Shown here: piece after piece, positions 12,132 to 40,286 of the stretch
Position numbering within the stretch: the stretch's first letter is position 1
How the letters are laid out: every line of letters begins with the position of its first letter
NCBI RefSeq assembly: GCF_030227115.1
Contig: NZ_JASSUA010000001.1
Coordinates: 2,046,001 to 2,110,000 of the forward strand
Origin: Marinobacter sp. SS13-12
GTDB lineage: Bacteria > Pseudomonadota > Gammaproteobacteria > Pseudomonadales > Oleiphilaceae
Direction of reading: 5' to 3'
DNA: 64,000 nucleotides
Notes under the pieces: model-generated
Database searches by the model: none
What the model saw: only the letters and a program-made list of their open reading frames with translations
Told to the model about the DNA's origin: nothing
Translations under genes and position numbers: made by a program

Positions 12132-14858
12132 GTGAAACCATTTGATGATGGCTGTGCGGCCAACGATGAGTTCCAGTCGGCAGTGGGCGGGGCTCATCGT
12201 GGCGAGTTGATAAGGGATTTACTGCGTCAGCGGGTGCGGATGCCAGAACCCGTGCCTAACTATCTGAAAAGAGCGGCACTTACGGATAAACTCACGTCGG
12301 CTATCAGACCAGGGCGGGTTCTGTTTGTTGAGGCACCGTCAGGTTTTGGCAAATCCCATGCCCTGAGCGCGGCCTTCCGTGAAACCGGTCGCAACCCGGA
12401 AACCCTGAGATGGCTGGGGTTGACGGGCCAGGAAAACGACCCCGGCCGGCTGATGGCACTGCTTGATATCGCCTTGACACCCCCTCGCGTTACGCCGCGA
12501 CCGTCCGGTCAGCAAAAAGCCGCCAGCTACAGCGATGCTCTGGCGATGTTGTTGTCTCACCCTCACTGGAATACGCCAGAAAGCAATAATCGAGAAGGCA
12601 ACGACCCGGAAGCCGGCAGTGTGCTGGTGATCGACAATATCGGAACTGTCGCCAATCCCGCGGCCATTGCCCTGTTGCAACAACTTGCCGCCAACACACC
12701 CGACGGTCTGGCACTGGTACTGGTGTCGAGAAAGCCGCTGCCGTTTGAAACCCATACCTATGAGCTTGAAGGCCGTTTCAACCGGATCGGCACAGAATCT
12801 CTGGAGCTGACCCGTTCCGAAACCTTCGAGTTCTTTCAGACTGCCGTAAGCCGTAATCAGCTTACTACCATTGCCGTCGAGCACCTGTATTCACTGACTG
12901 AAGGTTGGCTTACGCCGCTGGGACTCTATCAGAGAGAGCTGGAGTCCTCTTCCGAGGCCCGGCTACCGATCCAGGAAACCTTCAGCGTTGAACGTTTTCT
13001 CAGGGATGCGGTGCTGGTTCATCTTACGCCGGGGCAGCAGCGTTCCCTGCGGATTATGGCTGAAATGGAAATTGTCTCGGATGAGCTCTTCCTGGCCCTG
13101 GCAGACGCCGGTTGTGATCATGCGTTTCGGCCTTCGGCGGCTGCGGAAACCGGTATCCCGCTCCGTCCGCTTCCCGGCAGGGGGCGCTGGTTCCGCCTCA
13201 ACCCATTGCTGCATGACTGGCTGCAGACGCCTGCGCTGGACGGTTCCCGGGAACGGGCACTCAGAGCCAGTCGCTGGTTCAGTGAGCGGAATCAGTTCCC
13301 GGAGGCATTGCGATATGCACTGTTAAGCGGGGATATGGACGAGTCCGTCCGCATTGCCTCGGAAGGTTCAGAGGCGCTGCTGATCGGTCAGGATACCGCA
13401 TCGCTGCTGCGGCTGCGCCGGTCCTTGCCACCGGGTTTGCTGGAAAAAAGTGCGCGGCTAAAGATCGTATACGGTTGGGTTCATGCCATCGGTGGGCAGT
13501 TCGGCCAGGCGCGGCTGTTGATCAGAGATCTGGATGACGGGAATCATCCCGAACTGGTGGGGCGTATCGACGCCCTGAGGGCGTTTATCCTCCGTGGCGA
13601 GGGTAGCGTTGATGAAGCTCTGGCAGTGGCGGACCGTGCGCTGCAGGCAGAAGAACTGTCCACCCAGGGCCAGTTGGTCACCCAACTGGTTCGCTCCAGC
13701 GCCCTGTGCGCGGCCGGTAACTTCGGCGAGGCCCGGGAAGCCAATCGTATTGCAGCGAGGCTGGCCAGGGAGGCTGGCGATGGCGGTTCGGAAATCCTGG
13801 CGGTGTATGCCCACGCGCGGATTGAACTGGGTAAGGGCTCGCTGAAACACGCCGAGCAATTGCTGAGAACCGGCCTGGATACCGCCATGAACGAATCCTC
13901 CCGCCCGGCGCGGGTTGGTGAAACCCGGCTCCAGCTTAATCTGGTGATGGTATTGTGGCACCAGGGCAGGGAAGCCGAGGCGGATCGCCTGCTGGTGACC
14001 TGCATACGCCATGCGGAACAGACCCGTGACCTGGGCCTGTTGCTGGCCATGGCGCTGCGAGTGCTTATCTGTCGCACACAGAACCGGCTGGATGATGCGT
14101 TTTCCTGGATCGGTCGTGCAGAGCGCATCATGCAATCCTGGCAGGTTGACCAGTCGGTGTATGTTCCGGTGCTGGAAGCCCTGAAAATTAGTGGCTGGCT
14201 GTCACTGGGGCAGGCGGACACGGCAGCCCAGGCGATGGAACGGCTGACCCCCTGGCGGGAAGTGAACTGTGTGCCGGAAATGTTCCCGATGATGCCGGGT
14301 ATGCTGAACTGCCTGCAGGCCAGGATTGAACTGGCAAGGGGCGACGACGTAAAGGCTGCAGAAACGGTCAAGGGCATCCGCAACAACAGTGGCGAAACAC
14401 TGCCGTTCGGGCTGGATATCCATTCGCGATTGCTCGAGAGTGTTGTCAGCTGGCGCCAGAAAGGCCCTGCAGCGGCGCAGAAGATTCTCGCCACTGCGAT
14501 CAGTATGGCCGGGGATGAGCACTACATCAGCCCGTTTGCCGAGCTCAGGGGCGAGCTCCAGGAGTTGTTGGAAAAAACCTGGCAGCAGTTGCCGGACACC
14601 CCCTTCACCGAGTCGGTGGGAAGGCTTTACGGGTTATCGGATATGAAAGAGCAGGTGCCCCTGGCTGAGCCCATCAGCGACCGGGAGCAGGGCGTGCTGG
14701 AGCTCATCGCCCAGGGTTTGTCGAACCAGGATATTGCCGACTGCCTGCACATCTCGCTGCATACGGTCAAAACCCATGCCCGCCGTATCAATGCCAAGCT
14801 TGAAGTGAAGTCGCGTACCCAGGCGATCGTCCGCGCCCGGGAGCTTGGGCTGCTGTAA
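12132..14858 (+). CDS. LuxR-family transcriptional activator, MalT/AlkS type (LAL)
   Basis: A large ATP-binding LuxR regulator of 908 residues. The N-terminal NTPase has a P-loop APSGFGKSHAL near residue 64 and a Walker B-like SVLVIDNIG; the middle is helical TPR-like sequence (about 400-820); the C terminus is a LuxR helix-turn-helix beginning ISDREQGVLELIAQGLSNQD and ending SRTQAIVRARELGLL. Such proteins bind an inducer and activate target promoters; MalT and AlkS are known examples. The GTG at 12132 is the first plausible start; an ATG at 12240 (MPEPVPNYLKR) is an alternative that matches the usual N terminus. It lies 238 bp downstream of the DUF1302-DUF1329 operon and may control it. Its stop is 3 bp from the convergent acyltransferase stop. 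Confidence 0.9.
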   Translation: MKPFDDGCAANDEFQSAVGGAHRGELIRDLLRQRVRMPEPVPNYLKRAALTDKLTSAIRPGRVLFVEAPSGFGKSHALSAAFRETGRNPETLRWLGLTGQENDPGRLMALLDIALTPPRVTPRPSGQQKAASYSDALAMLLSHPHWNTPESNNREGNDPEAGSVLVIDNIGTVANPAAIALLQQLAANTPDGLALVLVSRKPLPFETHTYELEGRFNRIGTESLELTRSETFEFFQTAVSRNQLTTIAVEHLYSLTEGWLTPLGLYQRELESSSEARLPIQETFSVERFLRDAVLVHLTPGQQRSLRIMAEMEIVSDELFLALADAGCDHAFRPSAAAETGIPLRPLPGRGRWFRLNPLLHDWLQTPALDGSRERALRASRWFSERNQFPEALRYALLSGDMDESVRIASEGSEALLIGQDTASLLRLRRSLPPGLLEKSARLKIVYGWVHAIGGQFGQARLLIRDLDDGNHPELVGRIDALRAFILRGEGSVDEALAVADRALQAEELSTQGQLVTQLVRSSALCAAGNFGEAREANRIAARLAREAGDGGSEILAVYAHARIELGKGSLKHAEQLLRTGLDTAMNESSRPARVGETRLQLNLVMVLWHQGREAEADRLLVTCIRHAEQTRDLGLLLAMALRVLICRTQNRLDDAFSWIGRAERIMQSWQVDQSVYVPVLEALKISGWLSLGQADTAAQAMERLTPWREVNCVPEMFPMMPGMLNCLQARIELARGDDVKAAETVKGIRNNSGETLPFGLDIHSRLLESVVSWRQKGPAAAQKILATAISMAGDEHYISPFAELRGELQELLEKTWQQLPDTPFTESVGRLYGLSDMKEQVPLAEPISDREQGVLELIAQGLSNQDIADCLHISLHTVKTHARRINAKLEVKSRTQAIVRARELGLL

Positions 14859-14861
14859 CGG

Positions 14862-15758
14862 TCAGGCGGGTTGTTTCAGTTCGTCGATCCGCGCGTCCTT
14901 CTCGGCCCACAGGTCACCAACCCAGCGCTGGAAATCAACGCGGATTTCGCGATCATTCTGGTAATCCATGCCCAGGAACCGCTGTGGAATTTCCCTGGTT
15001 CGTACATCAATGACAATCTTCCGCACTCGCCCACACAGGTAGTCCCAGATACCGCATTTGCCCTCCGGGTAGACGATGGTTACGTCCAGCATGGTATGCA
15101 GGGACTCACCCATCGCCTCCAGCACAAAAGCGGTGCCACCAGCTCGGGGTTTGAGCAGGTTTCTGTAGGGTGAGTTCTGGCTCTTGTGTTTCGCGGGTGT
15201 CAGCCGGGTTCCTTCCATGAAATTGAAGATGGTTACCGGGGTATAACGGAATTTTTCACAGGCTGCCCGAGTGGTTTCCACATCCCTGCCTTTCAGTTCC
15301 GGGCGGCGGGCGATCTGTTCCTTGGTGTGCCGCTGCATGAACGGGAAGTCCAGCGCCCACCAGGCGATACCCAGAAACGGCACCCAGATCAGCTGCTGTT
15401 TCAGGAAAAACTTGAGCAGCGGAATGCGGTTGTTCAGCACATGCTGGATAGCCGGAATGTCGGCCCAGCTCTGGTGGTTACAGGTCACAAAATACCAGTG
15501 CTCCCGGCTCAGGTCCCCGACCCCGCGCACGTCCCATTCGATATCATGAAGCACATCGGCCAGCACGTTGTTGAAGCCGATCCATAGCCAGGCAATGCGA
15601 TTGAGAACGATGGTGCACCCCTTGCGGATGGGGGGAGCCGGAATCACCAGTTTGATAATCGCAAAGATCATCAGGATCGGAAAAAGCCACAGGGTGTTCA
15701 GCAGCACAAGCACAATTGCAAGCACACCTTTGACCGGTGCAGGCAAAAAACTGAGCAT
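14862..15758 (-). CDS. YihG-like membrane acyltransferase (PlsC family)
   Basis: A 298-residue acyltransferase of the PlsC superfamily, closest in layout to E. coli YihG. An N-terminal hydrophobic stretch (residues 8-40) anchors it in the inner membrane. The acyltransferase motif I is NHQSWAD (HX4D), motif III is FMEGTRLTP and a later motif covers VTIVYPEG. It probably moves acyl groups from acyl-CoA or acyl-ACP to a lysophospholipid, but the natural acceptor cannot be read from the sequence. The ATG at 15758 gives the expected length. The gene is convergent with the LuxR gene and followed upstream by the bax-like gene on the same strand, about 49 bp away. Confidence 0.9.
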   Translation of the reverse strand: MLSFLPAPVKGVLAIVLVLLNTLWLFPILMIFAIIKLVIPAPPIRKGCTIVLNRIAWLWIGFNNVLADVLHDIEWDVRGVGDLSREHWYFVTCNHQSWADIPAIQHVLNNRIPLLKFFLKQQLIWVPFLGIAWWALDFPFMQRHTKEQIARRPELKGRDVETTRAACEKFRYTPVTIFNFMEGTRLTPAKHKSQNSPYRNLLKPRAGGTAFVLEAMGESLHTMLDVTIVYPEGKCGIWDYLCGRVRKIVIDVRTREIPQRFLGMDYQNDREIRVDFQRWVGDLWAEKDARIDELKQPA

Positions 15759-15807
15759 TGTCAGACGTCTCCGGAATACAGGTATGGGCCATTATCGGGC
15801 GGCAGTT

Positions 15808-16731
15808 TTATCCTTCGCCGCCGGTTGCATCATCCTGACTGTCAGTCAGCAGGGCTTCTTCCTTGCTGGCTGAAGCAAGCTTCAGCAACTGTTGCTGGCT
15901 ACTGTCCCGGACGCTGCGAAACTTTTCGTCGTAGTAGGTCAGGTTGTTGTAGCGGATCATGCTTCTGATTTCTTTCACGTATTCCTCGCCGCGCTCGGAA
16001 TAGTCCAGCAGGCCGGCGGCAAGGCTTGAGCCGCTGGCGTCATCCCCGGAGCTGCGAGCCTTGAGGCGAACGTCCCGAAGCATCTGGTAGGCGGGGTGAC
16101 GATTCAGGTTCTGGATGTAGGAGCGCACCGAGAGATACGGCGATTCGAAATCGGCCACCTCGTGGCTGGCACCCTCAACCCGGCTTTGAGGCACGATGCC
16201 GCAGCCTTTCGAGAAGCACCACTGGCCGAACAGGTTATTACCCCGGCGGGCAAAGCGGGAAGTGCCCCAGGCGGATTCATTCGCGGCCTGAGCCATGATC
16301 AGTGAAGGTGGAATCACATCCAGGCGGTTCTCCAGGCGCCGGAACATGTCCGCACTGCCGGGTTCTTCGTCCACCCTCAAACGCTCGGCCTGGTTTTTCA
16401 GCCAGGTGAGCTCGGACTTGCAGAGCTCGTCCTTGCCGGAAAGACTCTGCAAATAGCCCCGTTCGATCAGAATGCGGGAGTTTGCCAGCACGATACGTGG
16501 GTAGAGAAACGAGAAGAATGCCGCTTTCTTTTCAGTGGTATCGCTATAGCTGGAAAAGTCCGGCAGGTCAGCCCTGGACCAGCGGGGCAGGGATGGCAGC
16601 TGGGCCAGCGCAACGTCATCGGTTTCATCCCTGTCCCGGTCAAGATCGGGGTCTGGTGTGTGCAACGCTCCCCACAAGCCAAAAATCACCATCGGAAAAA
16701 CCAGCAACAACGCCCGGATACCAGAAGACAT
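15808..16731 (-). CDS. Bax-like protein with glucosaminidase domain
   Basis: A 307-residue protein of the Bax group in the glucosaminidase (lysozyme-like) superfamily. Residues 7-24 form a signal peptide or anchor. The domain is recognisable from FLYPRIVLANSRIL, then IPPSLIMAQAANESAWGTSRF with the putative catalytic glutamate in ANESAWG, GNNLFGQWCF, and SYIQNLNRHPAYQMLR. These enzymes cut or bind peptidoglycan in the periplasm; activity of Bax itself is poorly known. The low-complexity acidic tail (DDATGGEG) is unusual but harmless. It precedes the acyltransferase gene on the minus strand. Confidence 0.88.
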   Translation of the reverse strand: MSSGIRALLLVFPMVIFGLWGALHTPDPDLDRDRDETDDVALAQLPSLPRWSRADLPDFSSYSDTTEKKAAFFSFLYPRIVLANSRILIERGYLQSLSGKDELCKSELTWLKNQAERLRVDEEPGSADMFRRLENRLDVIPPSLIMAQAANESAWGTSRFARRGNNLFGQWCFSKGCGIVPQSRVEGASHEVADFESPYLSVRSYIQNLNRHPAYQMLRDVRLKARSSGDDASGSSLAAGLLDYSERGEEYVKEIRSMIRYNNLTYYDEKFRSVRDSSQQQLLKLASASKEEALLTDSQDDATGGEG

Positions 16732-36386: not shown

Positions 36387-37748
36387 TTATACAGGTACCT
36401 CATCAAACAACTCCGCCACCTCAACATCCCATCCAAACTTATCCCGAATCCGCTTCCGCATAACATCACTAGCCACAATCTCACCATGAGTAATATAAAC
36501 CTTCTCTGGCTTCAGTGTCCCAGCCTCAAGCCACTGCAGAATCTCCTCATAATCCCCATGAGCCGACAGCGAATCGAGGTTATGCACCTCAGCCTTAACC
36601 GGCCAGTACTCTCCATGAATCTTCACCGACTCAGCCCCATTCACCAGCGCATCCCCTCGAGTACCCGGTGCCTGGAACCCGGCAAACACAATACTGTTGC
36701 GCGGATTAGGTAGAAGTGTCTTCAAATGGTGCAACACACGGCCACCGCTGGCCATGCCACTGGCGGAGATGATAATGCAGGGGTAACGCACGCTGTTGAG
36801 TTCGATGGACTCATCCACGGTGCGGACAAACTCGGTGTGCTGGTCGATCATTTCGCACTGGCCAGCACTGAGTTTATGCTCCTTGTGATGGCGGGAGAAG
36901 ATTTCTGTGGCCTTTATCGCCATGGGGCTGTTCAGGTACACCGGCATTTTCGGTATGCGGCCTTCGCCCATAATCTTGTGGATCAGGTACAACAACATCT
37001 GCGCCCGGCCTACGGCGAAGGAGGGCACAAGTACAATGCCCCCACGCCCGGCGGTTTTGGTAATAATGTCAGCCAGTTCCGATTCCGGGTCGCTTTGTGC
37101 GTGCAACCGGTCCCCATAGGTGGATTCACACACCAGCACATCCGCCTTGGTGATGGGCTCCGGCGCGCGCATGATCACATCGTCCTGTCGGCCCACATCG
37201 CCACTGAACACTACCGTGCGGTCGCTTTCCCGGTGGTGGACGTGCACACAGGACGACCCCAGAATATGCCCGGCCGGAGTGAAGGACACCTCCATCCCTT
37301 TAACGGGTTCGAATCGCTCATGGAAATGCAGGGATTCGAAGTGCTTCAGGGCTTCGTGGGCGTCCTTGACGGTGAATAGTGGTTCCGGCTTGTCGTGCTT
37401 GGAGAACCCTTTGCGGAAGGCGTATTTGGCATCTTCTTCCTGCAGGTAGCCGGCATCGGGCAGCAAAACCTTGCACAGCTCATGGGTAGCTTTGGTGCAG
37501 TAAATCTTGCCATTGAAGCCGTTTTTCACCAGCGCGGGCAGGTAGCCGGTATGGTCGATATGCGCGTGGGTCAGAACCACCGCATTGATAGACGAAGGCT
37601 CCACGGGAAACCGTGCCCAGTTGCGTTTGCGCAGGTTCTTCACGCCCTGGTACATGCCACAGTCCACCAGCAGTCGGTGTTTGTCATCCGACAACAGATA
37701 GCGTGAACCGGTTACTGTGCCCGCGGCGCCAAGAAATTGCAGCTTCAT
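36387..37748 (-). CDS. Metallo-beta-lactamase fold beta-CASP hydrolase (RNase-like)
   Basis: A 453-residue MBL-fold protein with the beta-CASP insert used by RNA- and DNA-processing nucleases. Metal-binding motifs are visible: THAHIDHTG (HXHXDH), TPAGHILGSS, FSGDVGR, and the C-terminal HGDYEEI and ITHGE. The RMMBL-like end includes KAEVHNLDSLSAHGDYEE. It probably cuts RNA; the exact substrate is unknown. The start at 37748 (MKLQFLGAAGTVTGS) is preceded by AAGGAT; the open frame extends to 38039 through repeat sequence and is rejected. Divergent from brnT across a copied 74-bp segment. Confidence 0.9.
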   Translation of the reverse strand: MKLQFLGAAGTVTGSRYLLSDDKHRLLVDCGMYQGVKNLRKRNWARFPVEPSSINAVVLTHAHIDHTGYLPALVKNGFNGKIYCTKATHELCKVLLPDAGYLQEEDAKYAFRKGFSKHDKPEPLFTVKDAHEALKHFESLHFHERFEPVKGMEVSFTPAGHILGSSCVHVHHRESDRTVVFSGDVGRQDDVIMRAPEPITKADVLVCESTYGDRLHAQSDPESELADIITKTAGRGGIVLVPSFAVGRAQMLLYLIHKIMGEGRIPKMPVYLNSPMAIKATEIFSRHHKEHKLSAGQCEMIDQHTEFVRTVDESIELNSVRYPCIIISASGMASGGRVLHHLKTLLPNPRNSIVFAGFQAPGTRGDALVNGAESVKIHGEYWPVKAEVHNLDSLSAHGDYEEILQWLEAGTLKPEKVYITHGEIVASDVMRKRIRDKFGWDVEVAELFDEVPV

Positions 37749-37757
37749 GAAGTCATC

Positions 37758-37831
37758 CTTGCAATAGTTTTGATGTGTTATGCCACTATCGCCCATATTA
37801 GCGCAAAATTTATTGATCTGACGCAGGAAGC
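37758..37831. repeat. 74-bp direct repeat, copy A (flanks brnTA)
   Basis: This 74-bp segment, starting CTTGCAATAGTTTTGATGTG and ending CTGACGCAGGAAGC, recurs at 38621-38694 with six differences (about 92% identical). Copy A lies just upstream of the MBL gene start and copy B just upstream of cysQ; the REP-brnTA-REP segment lies between. It probably contains the original MBL/cysQ promoter region. Confidence 0.92.
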
Positions 37832-37833
37832 TT

Positions 37834-37886
37834 GGGGTCAGACCCCAAGGCATTTCAGCATGCAAAATGTTCGGGGGTCTGACCCC
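37834..37886. repeat. GGGGTCAGACCCC palindromic element 1
   Basis: Two 13-bp palindromes, GGGGTCAGACCCC (37834-37846) and GGGGTCTGACCCC (37874-37886), bracket an inner CATTTC...AAATG pair. It abuts the 74-bp repeat copy A. Similar elements stand at 38562, 39475 and 40234, around the RAYT gene, so they are probably substrates of that transposase. Confidence 0.85.
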
Positions 37887-37988
37887 GGGCACACAGCCGT
37901 GACCCATAATCCTGTGGCTTGTGAGTTGTAGCAACATCTGTGCATGCGGGTGTTTGTTGTTTTCGTTTCTGTATGTACAATAAATGAC

Positions 37989-38258
37989 ATGAAAGTTGAA
38001 TTTGATCCAGGGAAGGATGCGCTCAATACGATGAAGCACGGTGTTTCACTGGAACGTGCTGCATTGCTTGAGTGGGATTTTGTATGGGCTACCGAGGATG
38101 CTCGCAATGACTACGGCGAACGCAGGATGATCGGGTATGGGCCTATTGGTAGTCGTGTTTATTGCGTTGTTTACACTGAAAGGGGTGATGCCCGGCGTAT
38201 AATCAGTTTCCGAAAGGCCAACAGACGAGAGGTGAGGCTATATGCGGACAAAATCTAA
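37989..38258 (+). CDS. brnT: BrnT-family toxin (type II toxin-antitoxin)
   Basis: An 89-residue member of the BrnT family, ribonuclease toxins related to RelE that inhibit translation. Family features are MKVEFDPGKDALNTMKHGVS at the start, the central AALLEWDFVWAT, ERRMIGYGPIG, VYCVVYTERGDARRIISFRKANRREVR with the usual catalytic Arg/Tyr set at the end. The ATG at 37989 matches the family N terminus; an upstream ATG at 37944 would add 15 unrelated residues. It overlaps brnA by 17 bp, the usual toxin-first order for BrnT/BrnA. The pair is enclosed by palindromes and a 74-bp direct repeat. Confidence 0.9.
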   Translation: MKVEFDPGKDALNTMKHGVSLERAALLEWDFVWATEDARNDYGERRMIGYGPIGSRVYCVVYTERGDARRIISFRKANRREVRLYADKI

Positions 38259-38547
38259 ATCAGGGCGGGTGTTTGAGTTGCCGTCGGATCAGGAAGAGTC
38301 CGATATTAATAAAGGTATTGCGGGGGACCCAGATACTAGAGAGCTTACAGACGGGGAGTTTCAACAGCTCCGCCCATTGGGGCGACCAAAAGCGGAGGTC
38401 ACTAAGGAGCGGATAACCATCCGGCTTTCCCCGGAAGTCGTTGAACAGTTCAGGGCTACTGGCAGCGGATGGCAAACCCGTATGGATAAGGCGTTGCAGG
38501 AGTACCTTAAAACTCACACTCAGTCGGAAGTTGAGAGGTTGGGTTAG
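38242..38547 (+). CDS. brnA: BrnA-family antitoxin
   Basis: A 101-residue protein that should bind and neutralise BrnT and repress its own promoter. The C-terminal half, VTKERITIRLSPEVVEQFRA followed by GSGWQTRMDKALQEYL, is the ribbon-helix-helix DNA-binding domain of the BrnA family; the N-terminal half is a charged flexible toxin-binding segment. GAGGTGAGG precedes the ATG at 38242, inside the end of brnT, so translation is coupled. A GGGGTCAGACCCC element follows 15 bp after the stop. Confidence 0.9.
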   Translation: MRTKSKSGRVFELPSDQEESDINKGIAGDPDTRELTDGEFQQLRPLGRPKAEVTKERITIRLSPEVVEQFRATGSGWQTRMDKALQEYLKTHTQSEVERLG

Positions 38548-38561
38548 TTGCCGGGAAAATT

Positions 38562-38615
38562 GGGGTCAGACCCCAAGACATTTCAATGGACTGAATGCAC
38601 TGGGGTCTGATCCCC
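38562..38615. repeat. GGGGTCAGACCCC palindromic element 2
   Basis: GGGGTCAGACCCC (38562-38574) and GGGGTCTGATCCCC (38602-38615) bracket CATTTCAATGG...GAATG. It lies between brnA and copy B of the 74-bp direct repeat, in the mirror position to element 1. Confidence 0.8.
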
Positions 38616-38620
38616 GATAT

Positions 38621-38694
38621 CTTGCAATAGTTTTGATATGTTGCGTCACTATCGCCCATAATAGCGCAAAAGTTATTGATCTGACGCAGGAAGC
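38621..38694. repeat. 74-bp direct repeat, copy B
   Basis: Second copy of the segment at 37758-37831, in the same orientation, ending 8 bp before the cysQ ATG; six base changes, all in the middle. Its AGGAAGC provides the cysQ ribosome site. Confidence 0.92.
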
Positions 38695-38702
38695 CAGCCC
38701 TC

Positions 38703-39467
38703 ATGCATTACAGCTCCATCCTCCCGGATGTCCTCAAAATCGCCGACGCCGCCAGCGAAAAAGTCCTCAGCATCTACATGACGGACTTCAAAGTGGACTA
38801 TAAAGCTGACGAGTCGCCCATTACTGCAGCAGACGTTGCCAGCCATCGGGTGATTGTGGCGGGCTTGCGCAATCTCAGCCATGATATCCCTGTGCTGTCA
38901 GAAGAAGGTGCAGAGATCCCCTGGAGCGAGCGTAAACAGTGGCACCGGTTCTGGTTGATTGATCCTATCGACGGCACAAAGGATTTCACCCAACGCACCG
39001 GCGAGTTCACCGTTAACATAGCTCTGATTGAAAACGGAGAGCCTATTCTGGGCGTGGTGACGGCTCCGGCGCTCAAGGAAGCCTACTGGGGCCTGAAAGG
39101 CGAGGGCGCTTACAAGCGGGACCGCACCGGGCGGGTGCATCGCATCAGTGTGGCGACACCAGGTGAGACCAAGCGCGTTGTAGCCAGCAAGAATCACCTC
39201 AATGAAGAAACCAGAGCCTTTATCGACAAGCTCGGCTCTCACGAACTAGTGCAGGCGGGTAGTTCCCTCAAATTTTGCAAAATCGCCGAAGGCCATGCGG
39301 ATATCTATCCTCGTCTGGGGCCCACCTGCGAGTGGGATACCGGGGCAGCTCACGCAGTGTTGTCGGCTGCTGGTGGCAAAGTAGAGACACTGGACAGAGA
39401 GCCACTGAAGTACGGAAAGGAGAATGTGCTGAACCCGTTCTTCGTGGCCGCCGGCGACTGGTATTGA
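38703..39467 (+). CDS. cysQ: 3'(2'),5'-bisphosphate nucleotidase CysQ
   Basis: CysQ removes the 3'-phosphate from PAP (and PAPS), keeping sulfate assimilation going. The 254-residue protein belongs to the inositol-monophosphatase superfamily, with metal-binding SEEGAEIP, DPIDGTKDF, and the C-terminal GPTCEWDTGAAHAVL. Its start at 38703 follows the AGGAAGC of the duplicated segment. In many gammaproteobacteria cysQ is near nudE; here the neighbours are an MBL hydrolase and mobile-repeat DNA, so the context has been disturbed. Confidence 0.95.
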   Translation: MHYSSILPDVLKIADAASEKVLSIYMTDFKVDYKADESPITAADVASHRVIVAGLRNLSHDIPVLSEEGAEIPWSERKQWHRFWLIDPIDGTKDFTQRTGEFTVNIALIENGEPILGVVTAPALKEAYWGLKGEGAYKRDRTGRVHRISVATPGETKRVVASKNHLNEETRAFIDKLGSHELVQAGSSLKFCKIAEGHADIYPRLGPTCEWDTGAAHAVLSAAGGKVETLDREPLKYGKENVLNPFFVAAGDWY

Positions 39468-39474
39468 GAACCAT

Positions 39475-39527
39475 GGGGTCAGACCCCCAGACATTTCCCT
39501 TCATCAAATGTCCCGGGGTCAGACCCC
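39475..39527. repeat. GGGGTCAGACCCC palindromic element 3
   Basis: Two GGGGTCAGACCCC palindromes at 39475-39487 and 39515-39527 enclose GACATTTC...CAAATGTC, an inner inverted repeat. The right palindrome covers the stop codon and last codons of the RAYT gene, so transposase and substrate share sequence. Confidence 0.85.
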
Positions 39528-40166
39528 AAATCGGGCGTGCATTTGCTCCTGAAACGCCTCTGTTCCAAGCGGTTTCCCGGCGATTGCGGCGTATTGGATC
39601 AAATCATCCATGCCATCCGGGGCGGGGCTGGCCACAAAGGAGCGGTAGCTCTCAAAGCGCTTATCCGGGGCAGGCTGGTACGCCAGGTAGCAACTGTGGG
39701 GCGTGTGCCACTTTGCTTTTAGTCCGTACCCATGGCACCGGTAGCTCGACCACTGATAGTCCCCGGCATAGTGCACCATTCCTGCTTTCACCGGGTTTAA
39801 CTCAATATACCGCTGGCACTGTAGAAAATAGCTCTCGGTATCCACCAGACAGGACTTGAACCGCCCCTCCCAGAGCGTGCCGGAGCGCTCGTATTTGTAA
39901 TTGAAGTACTGCGCATAATGCTGGCCTAGGGCTTTCATGAATCCGGACAGTGCTTGATCCGTTTGCGGTGTCACCAGCAGATGGGTGTGATTACTCATCA
40001 AAACCCAGGCATGAATGTCCACCTCATACTCTCGCCGGTAGCGGGAGAGAAAAGCGATGAAGGCGGCTCTATCTGAAAAATCCTGAAAACAAACCTGCCG
40101 GTTATTCCCCCTCTGAATCACATGCTGGGGCATCCCGGCCGGGCAAATCCTTGGTCGGCGGGCCAT
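39519..40166 (-). CDS. REP-associated tyrosine transposase (RAYT, Y1/HUH family)
   Basis: A 215-residue HUH-type single-strand nuclease of the REP-associated (TnpA_REP, DUF1568) group. The N-terminal MARRPRICPAGMPQHVIQRG is typical, the HUH pair is MSNHTHLLV, the catalytic tyrosine lies in RYIELNPVKAGMV, followed by the diagnostic YQWSSYRCH. RAYTs cut and rejoin single-stranded REP hairpins and are thought to spread them; they do not form ordinary insertion sequences. Palindromes of one kind lie at both ends of the gene, and the stop codon is inside one. Apparently intact. It stands between cysQ and the type VI module. Confidence 0.93.
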   Translation of the reverse strand: MARRPRICPAGMPQHVIQRGNNRQVCFQDFSDRAAFIAFLSRYRREYEVDIHAWVLMSNHTHLLVTPQTDQALSGFMKALGQHYAQYFNYKYERSGTLWEGRFKSCLVDTESYFLQCQRYIELNPVKAGMVHYAGDYQWSSYRCHGYGLKAKWHTPHSCYLAYQPAPDKRFESYRSFVASPAPDGMDDLIQYAAIAGKPLGTEAFQEQMHARFGV

Positions 40167-40233: not shown

Positions 40234-40286
40234 GGGGTCAGACCCCGATACATTTCACACTTTAAAATGCATTGGGGTCTGACCCC
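40234..40286. repeat. GGGGTCAGACCCC palindromic element 4
   Basis: GGGGTCAGACCCC at 40234-40246 and GGGGTCTGACCCC at 40274-40286 enclose CATTTCACAC...AAAATG. It lies 67 bp upstream of the RAYT start. With element 3 it brackets the RAYT gene. Confidence 0.85.

Follow-up and report, generated by a model that had tools for sequence, protein, structure and literature searches.

Toxin-antitoxin pairs between RAYT-linked hairpin elements suggest a cassette-like route of gene exchange in Marinobacter

RAYTs have been called domesticated transposases. In the accessible portions of the literature, REPINs comprise two inverted palindromes within one hairpin and are mostly intergenic, and the gene for the Y1 protein is itself flanked by copies (PMC3116915, PMC8266576); all these features recur at the locus described here. 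The enzyme TnpAREP cleaves single-stranded REP DNA, and the route of REP dissemination is stated, in the part of the source available, not to have been elucidated (PMC8266576). In the Pseudomonas fluorescens group, the presence of REP elements is a sign of older DNA, and REP deserts house many of the strain-specific genes; the single mention of 'toxin-antitoxin' in the available text of that report concerns bacteriocins (PMC3390384). Among TIRtrons, some TIR families are described in available excerpts as dimeric or self-complementary (PMC3733652, PMC6006769), and 20 of 26 TIRYTs are placed there in subclass 2.1 with a C-terminal HTH domain (PMC6006769).

The window, that is, the whole 64-kb stretch of Marinobacter DNA that we analysed, contains a toxin-antitoxin (TA) pair close to a RAYT gene. 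Genes and elements are ordered as the MBL gene (minus strand), copy A of a 74-bp repeat, element E1, brnT-brnA, element E2, repeat copy B, cysQ, element E3, the RAYT gene (minus strand), element E4, and vgrG. The native left neighbour, an MBL/beta-CASP metallo-hydrolase gene (36387..37748, minus strand; Pfam Beta-Casp, Lactamase_B and RMMBL), adjoins cysQ in relatives too; cysQ itself (38703..39467, plus strand) matched TIGR01331 with 310.8 bits at a cut-off of 228.8. Between them, the plus strand carries the brnT toxin gene (37989..38258; PF04365, 5.1e-22, 78.4 bits) and the brnA antitoxin gene (38242..38547; PF14384, 3.8e-21, 75.7 bits). The open frame of brnT is listed from 37944, and its start at 37989 was set by codon-based gene calling. 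With both Pfam domains present, the toxin gene first and the two frames overlapping by 17 nt, the pair agrees with the BrnTA type II toxin-antitoxin system and in itself shows nothing unusual.

What sets the pair apart is its borders. Each hairpin element measures 53 nt and consists of two GGGGTCWGACCCC palindromes around a 27-nt spacer, most of which forms an inverted repeat of its own. Repeat search and hairpin folding located E1 (37834..37886), E2 (38562..38614, its second palindrome with one mismatch), E3 (39475..39527, overlapping the 3' end of the RAYT frame) and E4 (40234..40286), all read on the plus strand and each folding as one long hairpin (folding z-scores -4.4 to -7.4). The original prediction had named REP-like palindromes common to brnTA and the RAYT gene. 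The four 53-nt copies confirm the sharing, and the palindromes are indeed present, with the refinement that each proved to be a pair of palindromes with a 27-nt spacer. A chance origin was rejected: the window holds 8 palindromes with at most one mismatch, whereas 100 shuffles averaged 0.22 and never reached 8; all 7 perfect palindromes of the 4.64-Mb genome fall inside E1-E4; and the reversed pattern was absent (0) among the matches listed. Perfect palindromes thus number 7 in this genome, and range from 3 to 79 across 18 genomes. Across 140 elements of 53 nt gathered from the genus, conservation extends to the palindromes, the CATTT/AAATG arms and the TT/AA edges, the spacer centre being variable; column counts of these 140 revealed neither a GTAG nor a CGTC tag conserved at the base of the palindrome. 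Two variants were seen along the way. A near-perfect palindrome of roughly 70 bp with GGGGTCAGACCC ends lies in G104 (L249, about 15516-15586) as an element variant beside a gene pair, X, described below, and in another genome a GGGGTCAGACCCC unit occurs in tandem with a different spacer (G036:C1:1180244-1180364), the best RAYT match of that genome being 49%.

The RAYT/TIRYT-type gene (39519..40166, minus strand) encodes 215 aa matching NF047646 (81.0 bits, cut-off 80) and PF01797, the latter being the only Pfam domain found at E<=0.001; no C-terminal HTH domain was detected. Residues H60, T61, H62 and Y120 are invariant in 12 homologues, and H60, H62 and Y120 are presumably the catalytic residues of Y1 transposases. 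Judged from sequence, then, this is a RAYT-superfamily Y1 transposase. Its gene is flanked by its own palindrome copies, E3 and E4, and the same holds in most mapped relatives. Of 124 Marinobacter genomes, 18 have a close RAYT (about 70% identity or above), in 15 of them no farther than 2 kb from cysQ, and strict double elements were found in 26 of the 124, namely in 15 of the 18 genomes with a close RAYT and 11 of the 106 without one. Beyond these, 80 further RAYT loci included 17 with the palindrome, 10 of which are the closest Marinobacter ones, and several carrying other GGGGTCAGA repeats. Pfam searches for cargo covered two of the 80, L272 and L286. In the former (M. persicus, RAYT identity 54%), single palindromes surround NTase_sub_bind and DUF4258 genes downstream of the RAYT gene (13389-16540); no TA family was found by Pfam in the latter. 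At another locus (L120, G097:C1:4455078-4458010), HipA_C genes flank the RAYT gene on either side. A plasmid search returned no relatives of the cassette and no close relatives of the RAYT, all 26 RAYT records being less than 60% identical.

The 74-bp repeat encloses E1, brnT-brnA and E2. Copy A (37758..37831) and copy B (38621..38694) agree at 68 of 74 positions (92%) with a spacing of 863. Copy A, recognised by repeat search and by its match to empty sites, is the MBL upstream region; it lies just upstream of the MBL start (37748, minus strand) and ends 2 nt before E1. Copy B begins 6 nt after E2, ends 8 nt before the cysQ ATG and is the cysQ upstream region, containing AGGAAG and a promoter-like stretch (38633-38662, plus strand; consensus match only). 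E1 and E2 therefore sit at the inner ends of the duplication. On recomputation, the coordinates, the 68/74 identity and the palindrome-brnT-brnA-palindrome arrangement first reported were exact, and the proposal that copy A serves MBL and that copy B, with its ribosome site, serves cysQ agrees with the positions.

If the cassette was inserted, strains without brnTA were expected to carry one copy between MBL and cysQ. We searched for cysQ in the 124 genomes and compared 30 loci. Four of them, L002 (G042), L003 (G017), L005 (G119) and L008 (G004, with 64 of 74 bases aligned), lack brnTA and show exactly this: MBL, one near-full 74-bp copy, cysQ, and no palindrome. Two full copies occur only in the window (L001, G000) and in L009 (G010), both with brnTA, and the brnTA-less strain with both copies that would have spoken against the original prediction did not turn up among the 30 loci. 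At L010 (G051) a single copy occurs with no adjoining MBL gene, and several more distant cysQ loci have only a partial and diverged match. A single 74-bp copy is thus the common state, and the brnTA unit with both its ends is missing from the empty sites, as is looked for in a composite transposon. The same gap has received another gene: in L007 (G027), a Fic-family gene stands as an insert (641-1503) between a full copy and a 28-bp partial copy, the family label coming from Pfam on a G112 homologue with 94% DNA identity to this insert. That G112 gene (L122, 8399-9166) stands between single palindromes, and L011 (G040) by eye retains a 3'-end remnant of the gene together with an element.

The distribution of brnTA does not follow the host genes. 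In the cysQ tree, G000, which has brnTA, pairs with G042, which does not, and G010, which has it, pairs with the brnTA-less G119; the MBL tree, which omits G042, G051 and G112 (no full MBL match), again joined G010 and G119. Between G000 and G010, the cassette is 94% identical over brnTA (brnT 255/270, brnA 272/289), with E1 at 49/53, E2 at 43/53 and the RAYT stretch at 579/639, as against 631/765 (82%) in cysQ and 639/749 in the aligned part of MBL. Since brnTA is less diverged than its conserved neighbours, it moved after the lineages had split, in agreement with the early idea of an incoming cassette. The further claim that the promoter region was duplicated when the cassette came in holds as far as the duplication itself, which is real. 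Both G010 copies carry the CTTAA allele of sister G119, and copy A of G000 carries the TGCC of its sister G042, with G000 copy B differing and resembling G017. With so few informative positions, the duplication may have come about by target duplication or by recombination at the repeat.

The search proposed at the outset for other genes bounded by palindrome pairs was productive, and numerous TA modules were among those found. According to Pfam, ParD/ParE, PIN proteins, CcdA/CcdB, PemK and Gp49/HI1420 are among the bracketed modules, as is a nucleotidyltransferase or the substrate-binding protein that goes with it, and G065 adds a second location for BrnT/BrnA. HipA occurs there with small companion genes, of the HTH type in both cases examined, and a Zeta toxin has a ParD-like neighbour, identified as such on the G014 copy. 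Single palindromes rather than the double element bound CcdAB and Gp49/HI1420 in G118 and one side of brnTA in G065. Around cysQ and RAYT, about 9 kb of G098 contain six TA genes or pairs recognised by Pfam (PIN_3, Zeta, PIN, a lone BrnA, ParDE and a nucleotidyltransferase pair), and its relative G068 has the PIN_3 and ParDE of these six at matching places. G112 has a PIN pair in the gap from cysQ to a NusG-family gene, and no element was found there. Beside palindromes in G065 (L038, 6355-6808), a DUF4258 gene and the DUF2283 gene after it may form a TA pair. Native genes are bracketed as well in the stretches that we fetched, including cysQ, the MBL gene and a NusG-family gene (Pfam), and bracketing alone therefore proves little.

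We compared gene families in the 18 RAYT genomes, scoring palindromes with at most 2 mismatches within 1.5 kb on both sides of 30 loci per family. HipA_C loci (30 of 35 matches used) were bracketed in 11 of 30 cases, PIN (30 of 33) in 5 of 30 and ParE (30 of 66) in 3 of 30, and both acetyltransferase and integrase loci in 0 of 30. Pooled, this gives 19/90 for TA against 0/60 for controls (Fisher p = 2.6e-5), a control that is only partial because its loci were the best 30 per family by score and mostly core-gene-like by appearance, for example XerC/D-type integrases. The double element stands on both sides in 11 of the 19 bracketed TA loci and is wanting on at least one side in 8, and some of the 19 lie on contigs other than that of cysQ or more than 1 Mb away from it. 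A link special to brnTA was rejected, for BrnT loci are mostly unbracketed: genus-wide, only 1 of 30 has palindromes on both sides (L052, G065). Among integrases, three neighbouring genes (436, 391 and 439 aa) recur at nine places in G069:C1, like a multi-copy three-recombinase mobile element.

The spacers of flanking elements point the same way as the bracketing counts. We compared the two spacers flanking each of 98 intervals between neighbouring double elements, leaving out 6 mixed and 3 gene-less intervals from the test. Spacers at least 92% identical and in the same orientation flank 7 of 14 TA-only intervals and 6 of 75 others, RAYT intervals included (Fisher p = 0.0005; rank test p = 0.005, p values that ignore relatedness among species that are not independent). 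The TA labels followed a seed list drawn up after the intervals had been seen, and the 'other' class includes TA-like genes, namely a HipA (L048, 5917-8227) and DUF4160 pairs (L032, L250). The six near-identical intervals outside the TA class hold an 82/71-aa gene pair, a pair with a PRiA4_ORF3-like gene, and, in four cases, conserved or unplaced genes. In the window, E1 and E2 are not near-identical (0.59).

One site was found in several states. Site S1, a gap bounded in each case by the same 667-aa and 482-aa genes, holds one element in G065, element-X-element in G069 and element-HipBA-element in G098, and the five 27-nt spacers of these three genomes differ at one position only; G025 has one element with a different spacer. 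The neighbouring genes of G065 and G069 share about 95-98% DNA identity, and what is repeated in G069 is the 53-nt element with some 5 nt more at one end. X, a pair of 82-aa and 71-aa genes with no Pfam match (L242, 7214-7731 in G069; L249, 15643-16160 in G104), stands between two identical elements in G069 and is a candidate new TA pair. In G104 it adjoins the same gene amid other palindromes, and its 79% identity is on a par with that of the genes nearby; some of its absences from S1 may therefore reflect loss between identical elements rather than gain. Entry of a circle with a foreign element by single crossover was rejected as the sole explanation of S1, both spacers matching the site's own element; a circle derived from S1 of a different strain may have entered. 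The S1 HipBA of G098 showed no more than a 64% match, over 261 nt, to another HipBA.

At a second site, S2, a truncated HipA cassette of G069 is 94% identical to that of G025 in two pieces (345 and 146 nt) and 96% identical to that of G084 over 1052 nt, compared with 82-88% in the neighbouring genes (G069 and G025, the only pair compared). The nearest approach to one cassette at two sites was a Zeta module that adjoins cysQ in G098 and RAYT in G014, at 82% identity. The cassette comparisons yielded no high-identity cassette at two different element sites, and the PIN (VapC-like) pairs of G098 and G010 showed no DNA match.

Taken together, the data suggest that small TA pairs in Marinobacter are often exchangeable cassettes between RAYT-linked hairpin elements, an unrecognised route of gain, loss and swapping. 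For the window, we consider it probable that brnTA is a mobile TA cassette bordered by RAYT-type elements and exchanged at element boundaries. On this account the RAYT would seed the 53-nt hairpins, whether REPIN-like or the dimeric TIRs of a TIRtron, and the elements would mark the borders where small addictive modules enter, leave or replace one another, each module finishing between two element copies in direct orientation. A unit E1-brnTA-E2 would have entered the divergent MBL/cysQ promoter region and its entry would have left the 74-bp direct duplication, by which both MBL and cysQ would have kept a full upstream region. We infer that exchange proceeds mainly by recombination at flanking direct repeats, at most sites the elements and in the window the 74-bp stretch; the RAYT would furnish elements, possibly nicks too, and addiction would select which captured DNA stays. 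A bolder version, in which a RAYT/TIRYT-based cassette system uses hairpins made by the domesticated transposase as attachment sites and lets small modules, many of them TA, enter at an element, duplicate it and pass between species in integron-like fashion with no integron integrase, strikes us as tentative and somewhat unlikely.

The RAYT could itself catalyse the movement, either by taking the hairpins of two neighbouring elements as ends and moving the intervening DNA by single-strand transposition of the IS200/IS605 kind, or by cutting the two palindromes of one element on opposite strands and capturing DNA between its copies. In G000 the elements indeed occur only beside the RAYT gene, double elements accompany a close RAYT across the genus, and the repeated unit at S1 in G069, an element with about 5 nt, is what staggered cuts at two palindromes would give. 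The duplication in the window nevertheless lies outside the elements, 11 genomes have double elements without a close RAYT, and IS200/IS605 insertion is not known to duplicate its target; direct catalysis, in either form, thus appears unlikely.

Two further readings dispense with cargo movement by the elements, and to each of them we give rather little credence. The elements may be bystanders that the RAYT later placed in many gaps, bracketing many genes, after the TA modules had arrived otherwise. The element-free PIN pair of G112 would then be expected, as would the 75 of 98 bracketed intervals holding only genes not labelled TA, which in part bear out the concern raised in advance that palindromes might simply adjoin genes without cargo. 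Against the bystander reading stand the excess of bracketed TA loci over controls, some far from cysQ, the more frequent near-identity of flanking elements at TA, and the position of the window elements at the inner ends of a duplication, elements that the empty sites do not have. The cassette and the right 74-bp copy may instead have come by homologous recombination from a donor with brnTA upstream of cysQ, an illegitimate left junction creating the direct repeat without mobile-element activity. That G000 copy A has the TGCC of G042 and copy B, which resembles G017, does not would fit such an import, as would the Fic insert of G027 with its full and partial copies in the same gap. Identity between G000 and G010 drops to 82% in cysQ, however, both G010 copies carry the CTTAA of its sister, and the informative sites are few. 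We retain the mobile cassette bordered by RAYT-type elements as our working explanation.

Compared with REPIN/RAYT systems, the Marinobacter elements are few per genome and have no GTAG tag, and the accessory TA modules between them are the opposite of the REP deserts in the accessible account of Pseudomonas (PMC3390384). The TIRtron motif GGGGWSAS, as given in the available excerpts, fits GGGGTCAG of the elements (PMC3733652, PMC6006769), but the 215-aa RAYT is without HTH by Pfam, a combination for which we prefer the name REPIN-like and do not class the elements as REPINs. The same excerpts name no TIRtron cargo genes, and a term search of PMC3686654 gave no match. In E. coli, a REPtron locus has been replaced by a TA operon, RAYT and TA alternating, according to the available part of PMC6006769, which cites earlier work; that text, however, does not state that REP elements bound or carry the TA genes. 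We found no TA cargo joined to RAYT, REPIN or TIR elements in the literature searched, seen in part and with subscription journals mostly outside it. RAYTs, REPINs and TIRtrons are already known, and TA cargo between such elements would be, as far as that literature goes, what is new. If the elements also dock cargo, RAYT-type enzymes gain a role in accessory-gene traffic, and the scattered chromosomal distribution of TA modules would have a route. The model can be tested, one locus being present in empty, filled and swapped states among related marine bacteria. Integron and superintegron cassettes form arrays of small modules, often TA modules, with a palindromic element between them; the Marinobacter elements differ from these in that they bracket native genes as well.
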